Positions 1,564-10,613 of a stretch of 43,930 nt of DNA are shown in pieces. Below the pieces are notes generated by a model. The model was given only the letters and a program-made list of their open reading frames with translations. It made no database searches and was not told the DNA's origin. The DNA is taken from assembly GCA_025057015.1 (NCBI GenBank), contig JANWYG010000015.1, positions 1 through 43,930 on the forward strand. Direction: 5' to 3'. Position numbers and translations under genes: made by a program. Source of the stretch: Blastocatellia bacterium. GTDB taxonomy: Bacteria > Acidobacteriota > Blastocatellia > Chloracidobacteriales > JADJPF01. The stretch's first letter is position 1. Every line of letters starts with the position of its first letter.

Positions 1564-1872
1564 TTATGTTTTTTCCAGGTAAGCTTTGAGCAGTAATTTG
1601 AATAACTTACCGTGATTGGGCACTTTGAGGTGCAGCAACTCGTGCACAATCACCTCGCGGCGAAAATCTGCCGACTGACGCAGTAACTCCGCGTTGAATG
1701 TCAGACGTCCTTTAGTCGAACAACTTGCCCATTTACGCTTCATAGGACGCACGTGAATTTGTTTGGGCTCTACACCGAGGCGTTGCCCCCAAGCATGGAC
1801 CTCAGCCTTGAAAACCGCCACCGGCACCGACTCTTCCAATGGCGGTAGCAAAGTAGGTGTTTCTTTTCTCAT
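1564..1872 (-). CDS. YgjP-like (DUF45) zinc metallopeptidase-domain protein
   Basis: This 102-residue protein belongs to the YgjP/DUF45 metallopeptidase family. The zinc site is visible as HELLH followed by VPNHG: two histidines in HExxH plus a third downstream His. Upstream is the family-typical stretch KRKWASCSTKGRLTFNAELL. The protein is short for the family (stand-alone members are often 160 to 230 residues) but the whole C-terminal catalytic core is present. Its start codon overlaps the hsdR stop by 4 nt, so it is the last gene of the restriction-modification operon. DUF45 genes are commonly found next to type I hsdR, but their role there is not established. The family call is secure and the function is unknown. 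Confidence 0.85.
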   Translation of the reverse strand: MRKETPTLLPPLEESVPVAVFKAEVHAWGQRLGVEPKQIHVRPMKRKWASCSTKGRLTFNAELLRQSADFRREVIVHELLHLKVPNHGKLFKLLLKAYLEKT

Positions 1873-4831
1873 GGACGATACCTCCGCAGCATGCTGATGA
1901 TCTGATCCACAAGCACTGGCACGTTCTGCACACCCGCCGTTCCCAACTGCTCATAAAGCGCCCGCCGCACCTTGCGCTCCTGCGCCTCATGGGTGCGCCA
2001 GTGCGGGTTGTTCTTTAGCGTCATTTCCATCGCTTTGGCAATACAGTGGCTATCCTCCTCACCCACGTTTGCCTGCTGGAGCAACCAACCCACCGTAAAG
2101 GCTTCCATCGAAATGCCGCTCTCTGCCTGCTGTTGCTGGGCCTGGTTGATCTGATGAATGAGCGCCTCCAACTGCTGCAACGCCTCCTGGGTGCAGATTT
2201 GCCGCTGCTTGAAGGCCTCTGCTATCTGCTCGGCCCGTTCTCCAATGGAGATCAAATAAGGGGCACGTTCGGCATCTTGCTCCACCTTTTTAGCGATGCT
2301 TTTGATCAGGTTGAAGATCGTGACTGTTTCCGGCTGGTTGCGCTGGGCAATCTGCTCCAGTGTCTGCGGTGTGATCTCGTACACCGCGACGGATTCACGA
2401 ATCGCTCCGCCCTGGGTATGCTGCTGCACCAATGCAGCGGTCTTGCGGGCTAGGTCACGGTTGAGGGGCGCCCCAACGTCAAAGGCGTTGCGCAGCAGTG
2501 CGTACAGGTCTGCCAGCCGCTGGTAGTCGTCCATACACTCGCGCAGAAACGGGTCCGGCGAGAGGATTTCATACAGGTCTTCCAATTCCCTGAAGAATTG
2601 ATAGAACTCCTGCCGCTTCTTTTCATCGATGAACGCCTGCAAAGCAGCGTCGGCGGCTTTGTCTGCGGGTTTGCCAGCCAACAGGGGAAGATACACGGTG
2701 CGCCCGCGCTTCATTTGCTCGGCGAATCGCATCTTGAGCACGTCCACCCTTTCGATGACGCCTAAAACATCCTGAGAGTCAAACGCCAGCGCCTTTTCAA
2801 GCTTCTCAAAGATACCCACAAAATCCAGCACGAATCCGCCGGGCTTGTGCTTGCCGTTTTCATCTTCATAGGGCCGGTTGACGCGAGCGATCGCCTGCAA
2901 CAGCACATGGTCGCGCATCGGCTTATCCAGATACATGCAGTAGAGCACCGGCGCGTCGTAGCCGGTCAGCAGTTTCTCCGTCACAATCAGGATCTTGGGC
3001 AACTCCTGCGGCTTGAGGAATGCCTTGCGAAGGCGTTTCTCTTCCTCTTCGGCAAGACGGTAGCGGGCGATTTCCGGCGGGTCGTTGTGCGCCGGGCTGA
3101 TGACCACCTGTGAGTATTCGGGTGGCAAGTATTGATCTAACACCTCTTCGAGCTGGCAGCACGCCTCGCGGTCTACGCCCACGAGGAACGCCTGAGCAGA
3201 GATCGATCTCCTTTGCGGGTTCGACATCGCGGTCTACGCCCACGAGGAACGCCTTGTAACCTTGGGTTCCACCGTCTCGGTAAAATGGTGCGCCACGTAT
3301 TGGGCGACCCGTCGCACCTGCTCTCGATTCTTGAGCATGTTCTTGAGCGTGACCGCCTCCAGCACGCGGTCCAAGTCCTCGATGTCGCTCACGCCCTCGG
3401 CTTCCACCAGGTCCAGAAACTCCCGCTCCAGCGTGGCGCGGTCCACCCGCAGTTCGTTGGGAGCGAGGCCGTAATACAGAGGCACGGTCGTGCCGTCCTC
3501 GATGGACTCGGTGATGGAGTATTTGTCTAGATAGTCCTGTGGATCGTCAGTGCCGAAGACTTTGAAGGTGCCCTTGCCGTAAGCTGTTCTGTCAATGGGC
3601 GTGCCGGTAAAGCCCAGATAGGTGGCGTGGGGCAGGACACCCATGAGGTAGTTGCCCAAATCGCCGCCCGTGGTGCGGTGTGCTTCGTCCACCAGCACAA
3701 AGATGTTGCGGCGTGTGTTGATGTTCGCCGGGATATCATCGAACTTGTGGATCATCGTGACGATTAGCCCGCGCGTGCCCTGTGCCAGCAACTGCCGTAA
3801 ATGCAGTTTGCTTTGCGCCACCGTCACCTGCCCGATGCCCAACGTTGCCGCCAGATTGCCAAAGAGTTGCGTTTCCAGTTCGTTGCGGTCCACCAGCATC
3901 AGCACGGTTGGGTTTTGGAAAATCGGCTCTTCGATGAGGCGCTTGGCAATGCTGATCATGGTGTAGGTTTTGCAAGAGCCTTGCGTGCGCCAGACGAGTC
4001 CGCGCTGCCTGTGCGGGTCGGCGCAACGGACGAGTGCCCGCTCGACCGCGCGCATCTGATGCGGACGCAGAATCACCCTTCGCAGGTCCTCGTTCTTGCG
4101 CGTAAAAAGGATGAAATCGCGCAGCACGCGCAGCGCTCGCTCCCTCGCCACAAACGTTTTGACCAGCGTCTCAAAGTCTTTGCCCGCGCTCTCCTCCTTC
4201 CAGTTGAAAAGGTTCTTGGCGGAGAGGTTCCAGGTTGCGCCATAGTAATACTGCACGAGGTGCGTCAGCCCGAACACCTGGAGGATAGCCAGCAGTTCCG
4301 GCGTTTCGCGATGGTAGCGGCGCACCTGATCCAACCCTTCGGCGATGCCCTCCAGCTTGGTGGCGGCTTTGGTCTCCAATATGATGATCGGGATGCCGTT
4401 GACGAGGAAGACCACATCGGCGCGAATGGTGTGCACGCCGTTGGTGAAGGTGAATTCATCGGTGACGTGGAAGGTGTTGCGATGAACGTCGGCATAGTCC
4501 ACCAGGCGCAGGTTGCGCTCGCGACGCTCGGCTTCCACGAACACGGTCTCCAAGCCTCGCAGATACTCCCACGCTTGCAAATTTCCCTCGATGGTGGACG
4601 GCACGCGCAGGAGTTGCTTGGCTACTTGCTCTGCCTTGAGGTGATCCACCGTGCCGGGGTTGCGGGGTTGAGCGCCTGCACCTGCCGGATGAACTCCTCC
4701 CACAAAATGGGGTTGGTCTCACCACGGCGCAGGCGCAGGGCTTCTTCTGGAGGTAGATAGGTCCAGCCGACCTCCTGGGCGTAGTGCATAAGGGGGATCT
4801 GAACAGTACGGCGTTCGGAGGAGAGGGTCAT
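1869..4831 (-). pseudogene. hsdR: Type I restriction enzyme R subunit (HsdR), disrupted
   Basis: The intact protein would be the roughly 985-residue DNA translocase/nuclease of a type I restriction system. Visible parts in order are the N-terminal stretch HYAQEVGWTYLPPEEALRLR, the PD-(D/E)XK nuclease core (ADVVFLVNG then ETKA), a helicase Walker A region (TQGSCKT), DEAH, GFTGTPI, and the second RecA domain (VTEKLLTGYDAP, QAIARVNRPYE). Four lesions are seen. A 1-nt loss in a C run near 4664-4667 shifts the frame between ALNP and NPGTVDHLK. A 1-nt loss near 3260 shifts it again. A 61-bp tandem duplication at 3166-3254 follows, and a TAG at 3234-3236 ends the frame. Finally, the invariant Walker A glycine before lysine is cysteine. 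The start at 4831 overlaps the upstream transposase stop. Restriction activity is very probably lost. Confidence 0.92.
3166..3254. repeat. 28-bp direct repeat marking a 61-bp tandem duplication in hsdR
   Basis: Identical 28-bp copies occupy 3166-3193 and 3227-3254, a repeat period of 61 bp. On the coding strand each copy carries the HsdR segment AFLVGVDRE. The 33 bp between the copies contain the 12-bp palindrome GAGATCGATCTC at 3199-3210. Because 61 is not a multiple of three, the duplication shifts frame. Together with a nearby 1-nt loss it returns to frame but leaves a TAG. Deletion by slippage alone would not restore the gene, because the 1-nt loss remains. Confidence 0.9.
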
Positions 4832-5473
4832 GGCATATCACCCGAATTTGCTGGGGTTTGGCAGATCATGGTCCAGATTTCCCGCGCCAGCGGGTCGTCG
4901 CCGGTACGGTTGGAATTGTAGCGGTCTAGCTGCCAGCGCAGCGGATTTTCGGCAATGTAGCGGCGGATGAGGTGCAAGGCGCGTTCGTCGCGGATGATGT
5001 GTTCGTAATAATTCCGCTGCCAGACAGGGCCGTCAGGGGCGTTGGGCGGGGCGTGGATGCGTTTAGTGACGGCGGATTTGAATGATCGAACAATTGTGGG
5101 AATGGAACCGGCAACGGGCATACCAAATCGTTCCACACGGTCGGCATTGGCGGTGGTGGTCGTAGGGGCACAGCGCCGCTGTGCCCCTACGACGTCATTG
5201 TCCACAATCCAAATGATCCCATGCACGTGATTGGGCATGACAATGAATTCGTCGGGATGCAACACCACATTAGGCCGAATTTGCGCAGTTTTGAACCATT
5301 CGTCACACACAATTTCCCCCTACGGATTCAACAACCATTTCCCTATTCACCACGCCGAAGAGGTGCGCCCGCTCATAGGTGCAAATGGTAATAAAATACG
5401 CGCCGCACTGGGTATAATCATACCTCTTGAGACGAATAGAGCAGCGATGACGACGGTCGGGATTATACCGCAT
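4828..5473 (-). pseudogene. REP-associated tyrosine transposase (RAYT, IS200-like Y1), frameshifted
   Basis: This is a Y1 HUH-type single-strand transposase relative of the RAYT family. The N-terminal part starts with ATG at 5473 (MRYNPDRRHRCSIRLKRYDY, then GAYFITICTY). The C-terminal part contains PNHVHGI, whose HVH is the HUH metal site, and WQRNYYEHIIR, which holds the likely catalytic tyrosine. The two parts lie in different frames: a shift occurs near 5315-5333, and a TAG at 5320-5322 lies in the downstream frame where a tyrosine codon is expected. Downstream of the lesion the frame runs open to 4828. A REP-like palindrome (5159-5193) is read in frame inside the gene. It sits between hsdS and hsdR. 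Family call is confident; full-length activity is unlikely. Confidence 0.88.
5159..5193. repeat. Perfect REP-like palindrome
   Basis: Arms of 16 bp (GTCGTAGGGGCACAGC and its exact reverse complement) flank a 3-nt centre GCC. This resembles the short GC-rich palindromes mobilised by RAYT proteins. It lies within the RAYT reading frame and encodes VVGAQRRCAPT between the HUH region and the rest of the enzyme. No other perfect copy is visible in this window; the stretch CGCCCCTATGATGACG near 5594-5609 is a possible degenerate half. Confidence 0.85.
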
Positions 5474-5588: not shown

Positions 5589-6896
5589 TTAGGTCGCCCC
5601 TATGATGACGTTTGCTACCCTTCTGCGTCCAGTCATCAGTTCGCCCAGCAGCGTTTTGAACAGTGCCTCCAGCGCCGCCTTGCGCCGTTCCTCCGCAGCA
5701 ATCTTTTTATCCACCGCCTGCAAGATGCGCGCAATCTCGCGCTGCTCGGAGAGAGGAGGGAGGGGAATGGGAACATGCTCAAAATTTGTTTTATGAAGTA
5801 TTGGAACCGTCGTCATCCTTGCGCGACTCTTCAGCAGCTCTACCTCTTGCATAATAGCGTAAACCAAAAACCAATTCTCACATTTCAAAGGTAGAATTGC
5901 ATTGATCTGCTGATTTGTGGCAGCCACATCACGTTCCAATATGCCAACTTTGCCAATGTAACCGATACAGCTTACAAGGACTGCTCCTCTGGGTATAGGC
6001 TTGGCGTGCTTAAGCCCTTTCTCTGTTATCGACCTAGCAGCGTACCAAATTGAGCCACCCTTCAAGTCAACTGGCGTGACAAATGGAATTGAACCATTCC
6101 AATACTCTTTGTGCTTAGTTGACGGAGTGCGACCGGTTATCACCCTACCCACTTCCCCTAGCCGTACTACCTGCCAATGCGCAGGTATTGTACCGATTTC
6201 GGTTTCCTTGAGCTGGACGCGGTCGGCAGCGTCGAGTGGCACAGGACCGTAGGTGAAAAGATGCTGCATCAGGCTTTTCTTCAGTTCGCGCGCCGCGGCG
6301 ATGACCCGCTCCGTCGCTTCTTTCGCCCGCTGCAGCGTGCGCAGCACGTGCGCAATGGCGCGCTGCTCAGGGAGAGGGGGGAGAGGGATAGGATGACCTC
6401 GTAGTTGCTGCACTTGGAGGTTATATTTGCCATCCGCGGCCCGCTTCGAGAATAGATGAAAAGGAACCCATTGACTAGGCAAAAGACACAAAAGGAAGGC
6501 TTGAGACGACTCTCGACCTTTAGCTCTTGCTCTAACTGTGAAGGATGCAAAAGTTACCGAAAGCGAACCCAAGTCCGTAATCAGGCCTGTTCGCCCTATG
6601 TTACGAACGCTCCCGCTAGATCCGACCAGCAGAATGTCGCCTTCCCGCAAAAGCTTGTCTTGATGGATAGCTTTGGAAATTCGCACTCTTGGCGAGATAG
6701 TGATTTTACCGTTGCTAGCTATATCAGGAATGCTTACGACTATGATTCCCGATTGACTTTCATCACCTTTGGACCAAGAGACGCCCCTATCAAAAGAAGC
6801 AACCTCCCCCAACCGCACTACCTGCCACTCTCCAGGCAGAAGTCCTAGTTCAGTCATCTTATAGCCCTCGGGCAAAGTAATAGCATCACCGCTCAT
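5589..6896 (-). CDS. hsdS: Type I restriction-modification specificity subunit (HsdS)
   Basis: The 435-residue DNA-recognition subunit has the usual two-halved plan. Target-recognition domain 1 starts near GEWQVVRLGEVASF and domain 2 near HWQVVRLGEVGRVITGRTPS. Each is followed by a conserved helical spacer beginning PLPPLPEQRAIA or PLPPLSEQREIA. I chose ATG 6896 because GGAGGAGA lies just upstream; an upstream in-frame extension to 7001 covers the hepT remnant and does not look like HsdS. The frame is uninterrupted, unlike hsdR. With HsdM it could still form a sequence-specific methyltransferase. The start overlaps the last codons of the hepT remnant, suggesting former translational coupling. 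Confidence 0.93.
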   Translation of the reverse strand: MSGDAITLPEGYKMTELGLLPGEWQVVRLGEVASFDRGVSWSKGDESQSGIIVVSIPDIASNGKITISPRVRISKAIHQDKLLREGDILLVGSSGSVRNIGRTGLITDLGSLSVTFASFTVRARAKGRESSQAFLLCLLPSQWVPFHLFSKRAADGKYNLQVQQLRGHPIPLPPLPEQRAIAHVLRTLQRAKEATERVIAAARELKKSLMQHLFTYGPVPLDAADRVQLKETEIGTIPAHWQVVRLGEVGRVITGRTPSTKHKEYWNGSIPFVTPVDLKGGSIWYAARSITEKGLKHAKPIPRGAVLVSCIGYIGKVGILERDVAATNQQINAILPLKCENWFLVYAIMQEVELLKSRARMTTVPILHKTNFEHVPIPLPPLSEQREIARILQAVDKKIAAEERRKAALEALFKTLLGELMTGRRRVANVIIGAT

Positions 6897-7226
6897 TGCT
6901 GATCTCCTCCAGAAGACGCGCAATCTGCTAGCGCAACAGCGGCAGCTCTTGTGTTGCCGTAACCCACACGATGCACCAGTCCACAGCAAAATATCCGTCA
7001 CGGCAATATTGCGAAGGGCGACGATATCTAGCCACGGAATATCGGGACGCTGGTCGGTGAATACATTGGGCAGACGCGCAGCAGCTTCGCCGATGACGAT
7101 CAGTTTCTACAGCACGGCACTTTGTCGCAGCTCGTTGCGTAAAGGCGGCTTCATCCACACCGTGCAGGAAGCGGACGATGGAATCGGCTGCCCCATATCG
7201 CTGAGATAGGGACGCTCAGGACGCAT
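6886..7226 (-). pseudogene. hepT: HepT-like HEPN toxin (DUF86), degraded
   Basis: Joining three frames rebuilds a HepT-family RNase toxin of about 113 residues, the normal length. Segments seen in order are MRPERPYLSDM, ADSIVRFLHGVDEAAF, NELRQSAVL, KLIVIGEAAARLPNVF, PDIPWLDIVALRNIAV, GYFAVDWCIVW and QIARLLEEISNER. Lesions are frameshifts near 7191, 7134-7141 and 6998, and TAG codons at 7108-7110 and 6928-6930. The 6998 lesion falls exactly in the HEPN RX4HXY motif; restoring one C would give RNIAVHGY. The ATG at 7226 overlaps the end of mntA, as in intact MntA/HepT pairs. The toxin is dead. Confidence 0.85.
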
Positions 7227-7515
7227 AAACGACCTGTTCTTCTCTCAGCACCGTTTCACGAATCAGGGACTTGAGGCCGTTTCGCAGCACCAAACCCACT
7301 TTCCGACCGAAAAGGGTAGACAGTTCGCGCGCGATTCGAGCAAGCATCAGAAAGCCAACCGCTGCGTCCAGCTCAAACTCCACCAGCCCATCCACATCGC
7401 TGGTGGGGCTGAAATTCTTGCGCAGGACGGAACCAAACAGGGACAATCGCCTCACCCGATAGCGGCGACAGAACTCCTTCATTACCTCTTCCGGCAAAGA
7501 AACAGCAAAGTTCAT
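7216..7515 (-). CDS. mntA: MntA-like minimal nucleotidyltransferase (HepT antitoxin family), probably inactive
   Basis: This 99-residue minimal nucleotidyltransferase belongs to the family that neutralises HepT by modifying it. The signature GSVLRKNFSPTSDVDGLVEF shows GS and the first two catalytic aspartates (DVD). The third acidic residue, expected in the KVDL context near the C terminus, is Gly here (RKVGLVLRNGLK), so catalysis is doubtful. I prefer ATG 7515, which has GGAGG 7 nt upstream, over the GTG at 7533 that overlaps the hsdM stop. It lies between hsdM and the dead hepT gene, a toxin-antitoxin pair embedded in the restriction operon. Confidence 0.85.
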   Translation of the reverse strand: MNFAVSLPEEVMKEFCRRYRVRRLSLFGSVLRKNFSPTSDVDGLVEFELDAAVGFLMLARIARELSTLFGRKVGLVLRNGLKSLIRETVLREEQVVYAS

Positions 7516-7529
7516 ACGATTTCCTCCAA

Positions 7530-9071
7530 TCACCTGAGTCCAAGCTGAAGGAACACCTCCCGCAGTTCCCGGTCCGCCTCCGCGCGCTCCTCCTCTGCCT
7601 CGCGCAAAAGCACCATCGCCTCTTCCAACAGCAACACTTCTTCCTTGTTGTTCAGGGCGGCATAGCGGCTGGGCGAGAGGTTGTAGTCGTTGCGGGCGGC
7701 TTCCTCGTTTGTGATTATTTTGCTGACCAGCGGCAGATCTTCGTTTGCGCCCACTTCCCGCCAGTTCAAGTAAACATCCGCAATCGTGGCGATGTGATCC
7801 TCGGTCAAATAGTTCTTGGGTCGTCCCTTGGCAAAGGCTTGCGAGGCGTTGATGAGCAAAACCTCGCCCTTGCGCGACTTGGCTTTGTTGAGCACGAGGA
7901 TGATGCCGGGCGCAGTGGTGTTGTAAAAGAGATTCTCCGGCAGGAGAACGACCGCCTCTACCAGGTCGCGCTCCACGAACGCCTTGCGGATGTTGCGCTC
8001 GCGGTTACTGCCCTGATTGCCGCTGCCGCGGCTCACTGCGCCCGTATCCAGCACCACCGCCATCTTGCCACCATCGGTCAGCGAAACGAACATGTGCTGA
8101 ATCCAGCCCCAGTCGGCGCTGGAAGAAGGCGGAATCCCAAAGCCAAATCGCCCGTAGGTGTCCTGCTCGTAAGTCGTCAGCGGAAACGTCTGATTCCACA
8201 TCGGATTGGCCGTAACCTTATGGAAGCGGCGGAAGCTCCCGTCCGAGTGCAAAAACGCCGGGCGCAGCATCGTGTCGCCCAGAGCGATCTCGGCTTCCAT
8301 ATCATGGATGAAGGCGTTCATGCGCGCTATGGCAAACGTTGCAGGGTTAATCTCCTGCCCAAAAAAGTGCAGGGGGTCAATGTGGGGCGGGATCACTAGG
8401 CGGGTGCCGTTGTCGTGAATCGTCTCTCCATACCTGTCTTTGAACCGCAAGAACGTCTTGATGAGCAATCCACCCGAACCGCAGGCAGGGTCGTAAATCT
8501 CCTCACCGGGCTGCGGGTCAAGAATATGGGCCATCAGAATGGCAACCTCGCGCGGGGTGTAGAATTCGCCCGCGCTCTGCCCCTGCCCTTCGGCGAACTT
8601 GCGAAGCAGATACTCGTAGGCGCGCCCCAAGATGTCCGGCTCAACGTCGTGCAAGCCCAGGCGATGCTTCGAGAGCTCTTCGAACAGCAACCTCAATTTC
8701 TCATCGGCGAGAATCCGCTGCCCCGCAGCAGTGGCGTTGAAATCCACGGTGTCAATGACACCATGAAGTCTGGGGTTATGTCGTGCCACCGCCCGCACGG
8801 CGTCGGTCAGCGCCTCGCCTAGGTTAGTCGTCCGGCGAGCGAGATGCTCCCAGCGCGCTTCTTTAGGGATGTAAAACCGCACAAGTTGGTGGTCCTCATC
8901 TACATACTTCGCACTCTCACCCAGTTCCGTCAGCTCATCCTCGAACACATCAGACAGCCGCTTGAGAAAAACAAGCGGCAGGATATAGTCCTTGAATTTA
9001 GGCGCATCCACAGGGCCGCGGATGGCACAGGCAGCATTCCAGAGCCAAGTTTCCAAAGTTTGAATATCCAT
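7530..9071 (-). CDS. hsdM: Type I restriction-modification DNA methyltransferase (HsdM)
   Basis: The 513-residue N6-adenine methyltransferase subunit begins with the HsdM N-terminal helical domain (MDIQTLETWLWNAACAIRG). It continues with the SAM-binding motif I (DPACGSGGLL) and catalytic motif IV as NPMWNQ, a variant of NPPF/Y seen in this HsdM branch. The C-terminal helical tail is acidic. I chose ATG 9071 because family similarity starts there; the frame extends upstream to 9152 without recognisable sequence. It is the first gene of the island operon. None of its first 14 Ile codons is ATA, in contrast to the flanking genome. The frame is intact, so orphan methylation with HsdS is plausible. 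Confidence 0.94.
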   Translation of the reverse strand: MDIQTLETWLWNAACAIRGPVDAPKFKDYILPLVFLKRLSDVFEDELTELGESAKYVDEDHQLVRFYIPKEARWEHLARRTTNLGEALTDAVRAVARHNPRLHGVIDTVDFNATAAGQRILADEKLRLLFEELSKHRLGLHDVEPDILGRAYEYLLRKFAEGQGQSAGEFYTPREVAILMAHILDPQPGEEIYDPACGSGGLLIKTFLRFKDRYGETIHDNGTRLVIPPHIDPLHFFGQEINPATFAIARMNAFIHDMEAEIALGDTMLRPAFLHSDGSFRRFHKVTANPMWNQTFPLTTYEQDTYGRFGFGIPPSSSADWGWIQHMFVSLTDGGKMAVVLDTGAVSRGSGNQGSNRERNIRKAFVERDLVEAVVLLPENLFYNTTAPGIILVLNKAKSRKGEVLLINASQAFAKGRPKNYLTEDHIATIADVYLNWREVGANEDLPLVSKIITNEEAARNDYNLSPSRYAALNNKEEVLLLEEAMVLLREAEEERAEADRELREVFLQLGLR

Positions 9072-10205
9072 AAGACGGTACGCTTTTATTATCAACCTTA
9101 CTCGGAAGGGCTTGTAAGTCAGAAACATAACGGATTTCATAACGCGGGTCAATCTAGATAATCTACATCTTGCTCGTGCCTCCTTCGCCCAACAGCAAAT
9201 TCAGCACGAGCAGTTGCTAGGACCAGACGATTAGCCAAGCCAACCTCGTGTTTGTAGAACTCGATCGCTGGTCAGCAGGTAGTAGTAAGGGTGTTTCCCC
9301 GAAGAGATTAGGCTGCAGTACAGCTGAAGGCGGCGGACGACATTGAGAATCGAGCGCATGGAGACGCGCTCATGGATGTGAAGCGAGACCACGCCTACCT
9401 CGAAGCTCGTATGTTCAGCTCTACTTGGCGAGACAAAGCGCAGTCTAGGTGCGGTCGTAGGCATAGCCGCGCGTCTGACGTTTGGTTGCCTCGTAAGTAG
9501 ACGCCAAGACCAACCGGCGGATTATTCTCGCGTTGCACTTGGCCGTGACGGAAGACCTTTATCTCTTCTTGGTTGGTGATATGCTTCTTTGGGTTCATAC
9601 CCTTTCCCGTCAAACTCTCTCCCGTAATCCCTGGTTTTAAATGCGCCTAACGCTTTAGTTGAGAAACAGTGGTGCCCTTTGCTGTTACTCTCGAACAAAC
9701 AGTCTTCTCTCCCAGAACCCATCTTGAAACTTCACTCAGTAAGGCAAGTCAACTTCCACAAACCTTTGCAACTCTGCAGCAACTAGTCTCTACCTTTTCA
9801 TTGAGGATTACGCCCGACAGGCAAGATTCTATGCAAAAAGGTGTAAAACCAAAATTTTTATCTGTTTCAGCAAAAATTGACTCTTCGCTGTCCCACAAGT
9901 TGGGCAGATGTCGACACTCTCCTAGCACAGCCCGTAAATAGGCAAACGATCACGGCATAGAAGAACTAGGTCTTCTCGAGAAACGAGATGGTTGACGTTC
10001 GTTGACAATGGTAAGGCTGTCCAGATCTTGCTTCCTGAGAGTGTTTACGAAACCGCTCTGACTGCGTACCGACTAGCTCAAGTATCCAGCTCAACAGTAC
10101 TTACCGTCTCCATGCGCACAGATTCCTTAAACAGTGGCCCGTTAAGTATCTGTCCTTGATTCAGCTTTCTCGTTCCTCGGGAATTCAACCTCCGGCTCGG
10201 TAGGC
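9072..10205. other. Long intergenic region without a supported gene
   Basis: No frame over this stretch shows recognisable motifs. A 9-bp inverted repeat (TGCTCGTGC at 9171-9179, its complement at 9204-9212, 24-nt loop) lies upstream of hsdM. On the minus strand a short frame reading GLANRLVLATARAEFAVGRR ends close to hsdM and looks protein-like, but it is interrupted upstream, so a decayed gene is possible. This segment separates the foreign island from the host-like selD operon. Confidence 0.5.
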
Positions 10206-10613
10206 TTAGCGCAGTATGGTGCTTACTGTGCGGTTAGTGGCGTTAAGGGTAGCCCTCGCTGCGGCATCAGCTTCAGAATCGGTAACTTGGCAAGCACCCA
10301 GCAGCTCTATCGCCTCCCCTACGGGATGTACAAAATAGTCGGTCTTGAGCAGCACTACTACAAAGGGTTTGCCCTCCCTTAGCTCTTTTACCGTTACTTC
10401 GCTTATGTCAAAATTCACCGGCTTAGTGATAGCTTGCGATATAGCATCCAGCGTGGCGCTCACTGCAGCTTCTAGGGCTTGTCGCTTGTGACGAAAGGCG
10501 ACACCTTCGTAGCTTTTGGCTGCCGGGCCTTGTAGCAGCACCCGTGCTTGTACGTTGTCTTCTTCGACGTCAGAAAGAGAAACCTTTTTCAACTTCAGCC
10601 TATATCTTGCCAT
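10206..10613 (-). CDS. Small conserved-looking protein downstream of selD, function unknown
   Basis: The 135-residue product has no signal peptide or membrane segment. Its pattern (hydrophobic strands, a helix around HKRQALEAAVSATLDAISQA, strand KPFVVVLL, then a C-terminal AAARATLNATNR helix) suggests a compact alpha/beta domain. It resembles small regulatory domains seen beside other enzymes, but I cannot name the family. Its ATG lies inside selD and overlaps that gene by 14 nt in another frame, so the two are probably translationally coupled. Position suggests a role linked to SelD or to the sensor kinase; that is inference only. Confidence 0.75.
   Translation of the reverse strand: MARYRLKLKKVSLSDVEEDNVQARVLLQGPAAKSYEGVAFRHKRQALEAAVSATLDAISQAITKPVNFDISEVTVKELREGKPFVVVLLKTDYFVHPVGEAIELLGACQVTDSEADAAARATLNATNRTVSTILR

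Follow-up and report, generated by a model that had tools for sequence, protein, structure and literature searches.

The window analysed here, a stretch of 43,930 nucleotides from the genome of a Blastocatellia bacterium, contains what we read as a type I restriction-modification operon that has spread horizontally, carries a HEPN-MNT (HepT-MntA) cassette between hsdM and hsdS and is now decaying, a reading to which we assign a probability of about 0.85. The genes run on the minus strand in the order hsdM, mntA, hepT remnant, hsdS, a RAYT/Y1-like gene, hsdR and a short metallopeptidase-like gene. The DNA methyltransferase subunit gene hsdM (7530-9152) is open, with the ATG at 9071 as its likely start, and its product matches N6_Mtase (E 5.1e-90) and HsdM_N (E 4.8e-24). 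The specificity subunit gene hsdS (5589-6896) is likewise open and encodes 435 aa that match Methylase_S in two stretches (E 4.2e-45); it has its own GGAGGAG stretch within the tail of hepT. Both subunits thus retain the family domains of a type I system. Since hsdM runs to 7530 and hsdS begins at 6896, the minimal nucleotidyltransferase antitoxin gene mntA (7216-7515) and the remnant of the HEPN RNase toxin gene hepT (6886-7226) lie between them, as the sequence-only reading had proposed. The operon ends with an open gene at 1564-1872, which we take by eye to encode a YgjP-like metallopeptidase and which shares 63% identity over 100 aa with the gene in the same place in one related locus, L141.

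Intact relatives provide the reference for what has been lost. A scan of genome contigs with HsdM, from which the best 80 loci among the matches listed were kept, revealed an orthologous pair 3' of hsdM in an uncultured Chloroflexus MAG (L141), the Chloroflexi TumbabinsA95 MAG (L118) and the Nitrospirae J017 MAG (L117), and in all three both members of the pair are intact, with hepT as one continuous frame. L118 preserves the whole order hsdM-mntA-hepT-hsdS-RAYT-hsdR with every gene open, and its HsdM has the motifs DPACGSGG and NPMWNQ in common with that of the window. In L117 an additional ATPase-like ORF of 831 residues stands between hsdM and mntA. In L141 mntA and hepT are intact (8601-10333) and little is left of hsdS and hsdR; this Chloroflexus locus is the reverse state of the window and may be a chimeric assembly. 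More distant MNT or MNT-HEPN genes lie beside hsdM in L074, L087 (where the HEPN gene runs off the contig), L094 (where the pair follows hsdS) and L062 (where it precedes hsdM). At least 7 of the 80 best loci therefore carry MNT or MNT-HEPN genes by hsdM, including L141, L118 and L117, a lower bound because 20 of the 80 contigs end less than 1.2 kb from hsdM.

Alignment with the three intact loci shows how thoroughly hepT has been wrecked. Four base pairs are missing at 7194/7195, two at 7135/7136 and one at 6998/6999, and TAG codons stand in frame at 7107-7109 and 6928-6930. The three frameshifts and two amber codons first counted from the sequence are upheld by this alignment, as is the placing of one lesion in the active site, the single-base loss falling in the His codon of RX4HXY. 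What should be an intact adjacent HEPN gene (PF01934) with that motif is thus a gene in pieces, and one frame of the remnant still matches the HepT-like family (E 4.2e-7) with a TAG inside the match. The readable parts share 72-79% aa identity with the three orthologues over 106 codons, which together with the family matches of both genes (NTP_transf_2 at E 4.6e-11 for MntA) makes it clear that the identification of the pair is not due to chance. The same legibility is what would speak for continued production of HepT through programmed frameshifting and stop read-through, an explanation that we regard as very improbable, as the ribosome would have to change frame three times and pass two stops within about 115 codons, where all three orthologues use one continuous frame. 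Loss of the motif need not by itself disarm a HEPN toxin, since the excerpted account of a Legionella pneumophila protein states that an H103A variant still arrested growth (PMC11586414); this caveat is tempered here because the hepT frame itself is broken.

The antitoxin gene presents a different picture. From the ATG at 7515, which a GGAGG stretch immediately precedes, mntA stays open to 7216 and encodes 99 aa with 69%, 65% and 61% identity to the proteins of L141, L118 and L117. It lies directly upstream of the hepT remnant, which it overlaps (7216 against 7226), and the same overlap occurs in the three orthologous loci. The protein keeps GSX10DXD and qualifies as an MNT protein of PF01909, and its codon 74 (7294-7296) specifies Gly at the position that the third catalytic, metal-binding Asp occupies in the three orthologues, which agrees with what had been read from the letters. 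Among 62 distinct MNT domain sequences from the collected loci, both Asp residues of DXD are retained in every one; the third residue is acidic in 59 (Asp in 56, Glu in 3), and the remainder comprises one Ser, one gap and the single Gly of the window. In the complex from Shewanella oneidensis, as described in the extracts of PMC7641770, D39, D41 and D71 of MntA coordinate Mg2+, and changing DXD to EXE stops AMPylation and leaves HepT binding in place. Going by the order of the motifs, we read codon 74 as the probable counterpart of D71; the structure with which the family profile was aligned is PDB 1wot.

Decay is wider than first noted, as hsdR and the RAYT-like gene are also broken while hsdM and hsdS are open; the whole operon, and not the toxin alone, has been disarmed. 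The restriction subunit gene hsdR (1869-4831) has the HSDR_N, ResIII, SWI2_SNF2 and T1R_D3-like matches divided between two ORFs, and it contains an 8-bp tandem duplication (4670-4655), a loss of 1 bp near 3260 and a 61-bp insertion with a 28-bp direct repeat (3254-3227 and 3193-3166). A Gly of its Walker A motif has become Cys (3974-3972), giving GSCKT against GSGKT in L117 and L118, where hsdR is open; the window therefore lacks the open HsdR with intact motor motifs that a working type I system has. As an observation in its own right, the 61-bp insertion flanked by two copies of a 28-bp hsdR stretch (3166-3254) resembles one repeat-spacer-repeat unit. The RAYT/Y1-like transposase gene between hsdS and hsdR (4828-5473) matches Y1_Tnp at E 6e-4, below Pfam's cut-off, and aligns with the L118 gene at 61-63% identity in two frames, with one frameshift near 5320-5340 beside a run of five G.

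The lesions were called from one assembly, and it could be argued that they are errors of assembly or base calling in an operon that is intact in the cell, given that several add or remove no more than a few bases and that the RAYT-like lesion adjoins a homopolymer. We consider this unlikely: deletions of 4 and 2 bp, the 8-bp duplication, the 61-bp insertion, two stops and two active-site substitutions correspond to no single error type, the neighbouring hsdM and hsdS (about 2.8 kb) have no lesions, and the assembly is 97.25% complete and 0.16% contaminated in 23 contigs.

The RAYT-like genes of these operons contain a palindrome, GTAGGGGC...GCCCCTAC, at much the same point in the coding region. 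It is located at 5162-5190 in the window and at L118:13874-13902, L082:13236-13264, L106:13177-13205, L117:16849-16876, L091:11947-11974, L104:12647-12674, L130:11182-11210, L135:14522-14549, L088:11944-11971 and L109:14740-14768, the L109 copy being recognized by eye; L072 (a fragment), L108 and L115 have none. In 10 of 14 genes or fragments (L097 left out) it is longer than any palindrome in 20 shuffles of the gene. The inner arms vary and yet remain complementary, at 67 of 70 inner pairs over 10 distinct sequences, compared with a mean of 34.5 and a maximum of 57 when the arms were shuffled 2000 times. In the bacterium's own genome the window copy alone matches the pattern exactly. The element resembles a REP that has a GTAG head and lies within the transposase gene; in the RAYT genes described in the excerpts of PMC2817692 the REPs flank the gene.

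The distribution of lesions suggests an order of events. Five of the nine lesions in hepT, the RAYT-like gene and hsdR fall in hepT, which accounts for about 9% of the combined length of the three genes (binomial p 4.7e-4), and this excess for length indicates that hepT has probably been free of selection for longest. At the density of hepT, 4.3 lesions would be predicted in the 297 bp of mntA, where there are 0 (Poisson P 0.014); by length alone, the placement of five out of five in hepT and none in mntA has p 0.045, which rises to 0.083 if the first lesion is set aside. These counts offer weak evidence that mntA outlived hepT.

Substitution patterns say less. On the window branch the dN/dS ratio w is 0.109 for mntA against a background of 0.022, and 0.172 against 0.044 for the readable hepT codons, all with synonymous sites saturated. 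The corresponding 2dlnL values for mntA and hepT are 2.96 and 2.91 against one ratio and 1.83 and 1.08 against neutrality, with several branch lengths at the upper bound. The dN/dS check proposed for mntA consequently rejects neither one ratio nor neutrality, and with saturated synonymous sites the codon models show neither constraint nor its absence in this gene. For hsdM, compared with other reference genes than in the mntA and hepT tests, w is 0.078 and neutrality is rejected (12.23), as it is for the first part of hsdR (w 0.071; 11.54); the second part, of 89 codons only, gives w 0.119 without rejection (0.57). Because the first part of a broken hsdR still has low dN/dS, most substitutions must predate the decay, and it is the lesion counts that carry the order of gene deaths. 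Where all three orthologues share a residue, the window has a different one at 10 of 63 positions in mntA, 9 of 76 in readable hepT and 54 of 371 in hsdM, so that the idea of an mntA evolving faster than the rest of the operon was rejected.

The proposal that the toxin was lost while the antitoxin persists thus stands in its first half, hepT being dead, and in the open frame of mntA; retention of mntA is weakly supported, as its metal-binding Asp is gone, its conserved sites have changed about as much as those of hsdM and the placement of lesions reaches p 0.045 by length. It could be that MntA has been selected after toxin loss as an anti-addiction or binding-only antitoxin, a role that the absence of lesions in mntA would favour and for which the EXE mutant, in the extracts of PMC7641770, offers a precedent by binding HepT without modifying it. 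The lost Asp and a conservation no higher than that of hsdM argue against this, and a second genomic HepT to explain retention was sought and not found: at E 0.001 the bacterium's own genome has no other NTP_transf_2, HepT-like or PF05168 match, leaving MntA with no visible partner except the remnant. We judge such selection improbable, about as much so as sequencing error.

On the preferred reading, a horizontally spread operon in decay, the working form would have resembled L118. HsdMSR would restrict unmodified DNA, and the HepT RNase would be held inactive through AMPylation of its RX4HXY Tyr by MntA, a mechanism known for the family and predicted here. The pair probably served the operon as an addiction module or a fail-safe, by analogy with the PrrC that is encoded within an hsd operon. 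In the window both nucleases are gone, HepT by five lesions and HsdR by three plus the Walker A change, and the open HsdM and HsdS would leave at most an orphan methyltransferase. HepT was probably the first to die, its gene having a far higher density of lesions than hsdR, and since loss of the antitoxin before the toxin should be lethal, the toxin would have had to go first. MntA, now partnerless, has lost a metal-binding Asp and would be decaying more slowly or later.

Within the host phylum, 69 loci were searched with in-frame queries. Two longer lists of matches had contributed 29 and 30 loci, one of the 30 being the window's own. MNT and HEPN genes stand between hsdM and hsdS in two of these besides the window, L152 (G287) and L169 (G337), whose HsdM is only 32-33% identical to that of the window, and in L155 (G027) a pair follows a piece of hsdM. 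In wider stretches, L186 (G287) has hsdM-mnt-hep-hsdS plus an hsdR-like gene, L185 (G337) has these genes in the same arrangement with hsdM matched in two frames, and L187 (G027) has a partial hsdM and then the pair. In L184 (G007, from the same taxonomic order as the window's host) some 1.9 kb separate hsdM from the pair, and no more than a short piece of hsdS is present. These phylum pairs are unlike that of the window, with matches of 37-47% to the L118 proteins; the nested arrangement recurs with unlike pairs and unlike HsdM. Away from RM genes, an MNT-HEPN pair at L177:5902-6529 (G419) has a HEPN frame that stops at a TAG just past RX4HXY.

An HsdM tree of 80 rows (81 sequences minus one of 419 residues) places the window with L062 and L063 (99/97), apart from L141, L118 and L117, while L118 and L141 group with L072 (99/98) and L117 with L085 (99/93). 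Eight carriers need 8 changes, against a mean of 7.8 for shuffled labels, and well-supported branches force 6 changes among the carriers. The cassette has moved, or has repeatedly been lost, independently of hsdM, and the tree fits either.

The interval between hsdM and hsdS is itself variable. The in-frame HsdS profile matched in 50 of the 60 loci having at least 1.2 kb downstream of hsdM, with hsdS at most 600 bp from hsdM in 23 of these and further away in 27. Among 20 loci chosen for reading, some have extra ORFs in the gap or its neighbourhood and others have nothing there; by eye, we take these ORFs to be AlbA-like, an SMC-like ATPase, XRE plus PIN-like, Fic-like and RAYT-like. Related ORFs of about 1660 aa with similar N-termini also lie 3' of hsdM in two different operons (L064:11619-16607 and L173:6103-11079). 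Tentatively, the gap may act as a cargo port through which small effector modules, toxin-antitoxin pairs among them, are swapped independently of the methylase, tying a second defence to the RM complex, and the host of the window may have shed HsdR and HepT and kept a harmless HsdMS and MntA; we would not rank this above a possibility.

The locus is a decayed example of kinds already known, a real decay in a recurrent slot, and its value is comparative. It illustrates clearly how an operon can lose both of its nuclease genes and have its methylase genes still open; the sister operons with an intact pair are a place to test coupling between type VII toxin-antitoxin systems and type I restriction, and the recurrent hsdM-hsdS cargo slot is a practical hunting ground for new defence genes. 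No title or abstract in the open literature searched had hsdM-mntA-hepT-hsdS as its subject; the extracts of PMC3710099 already report HEPN genes in the vicinity of RM operons as well as a PrrC encoded within an hsd operon, and those of PMC7641770 the HepT-MntA mechanism.

Set beside known systems, the operon resembles a type I hsdMSR operon in having hsdM, hsdS and hsdR in order on one strand, and differs in its broken hsdR and in the accessory genes that occupy the hsdM-hsdS and hsdS-hsdR gaps. It resembles HepT/MntA (HEPN-MNT, type VII; SO_3166/SO_3165 of Shewanella oneidensis) in placing the MNT gene first with an overlapping HEPN gene, in the GSX10DXD of MntA and, in the intact orthologues, in a PF01934 protein with RX4HXY; here hepT is a pseudogene, Gly replaces the third metal-binding Asp and the pair sits inside a type I RM operon. 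A further parallel is PrrC, the HEPN anticodon nuclease of a type Ic hsd operon, which in the extracts of PMC3710099 is likewise a HEPN RNase among hsd genes, and by analogy only, a PrrC-like release of the HEPN nuclease when restriction is blocked would give the intact pair a fail-safe role. PrrC differs in having an ABC ATPase domain and in being silenced by the RM complex, a task that for HepT falls to its own MNT partner.
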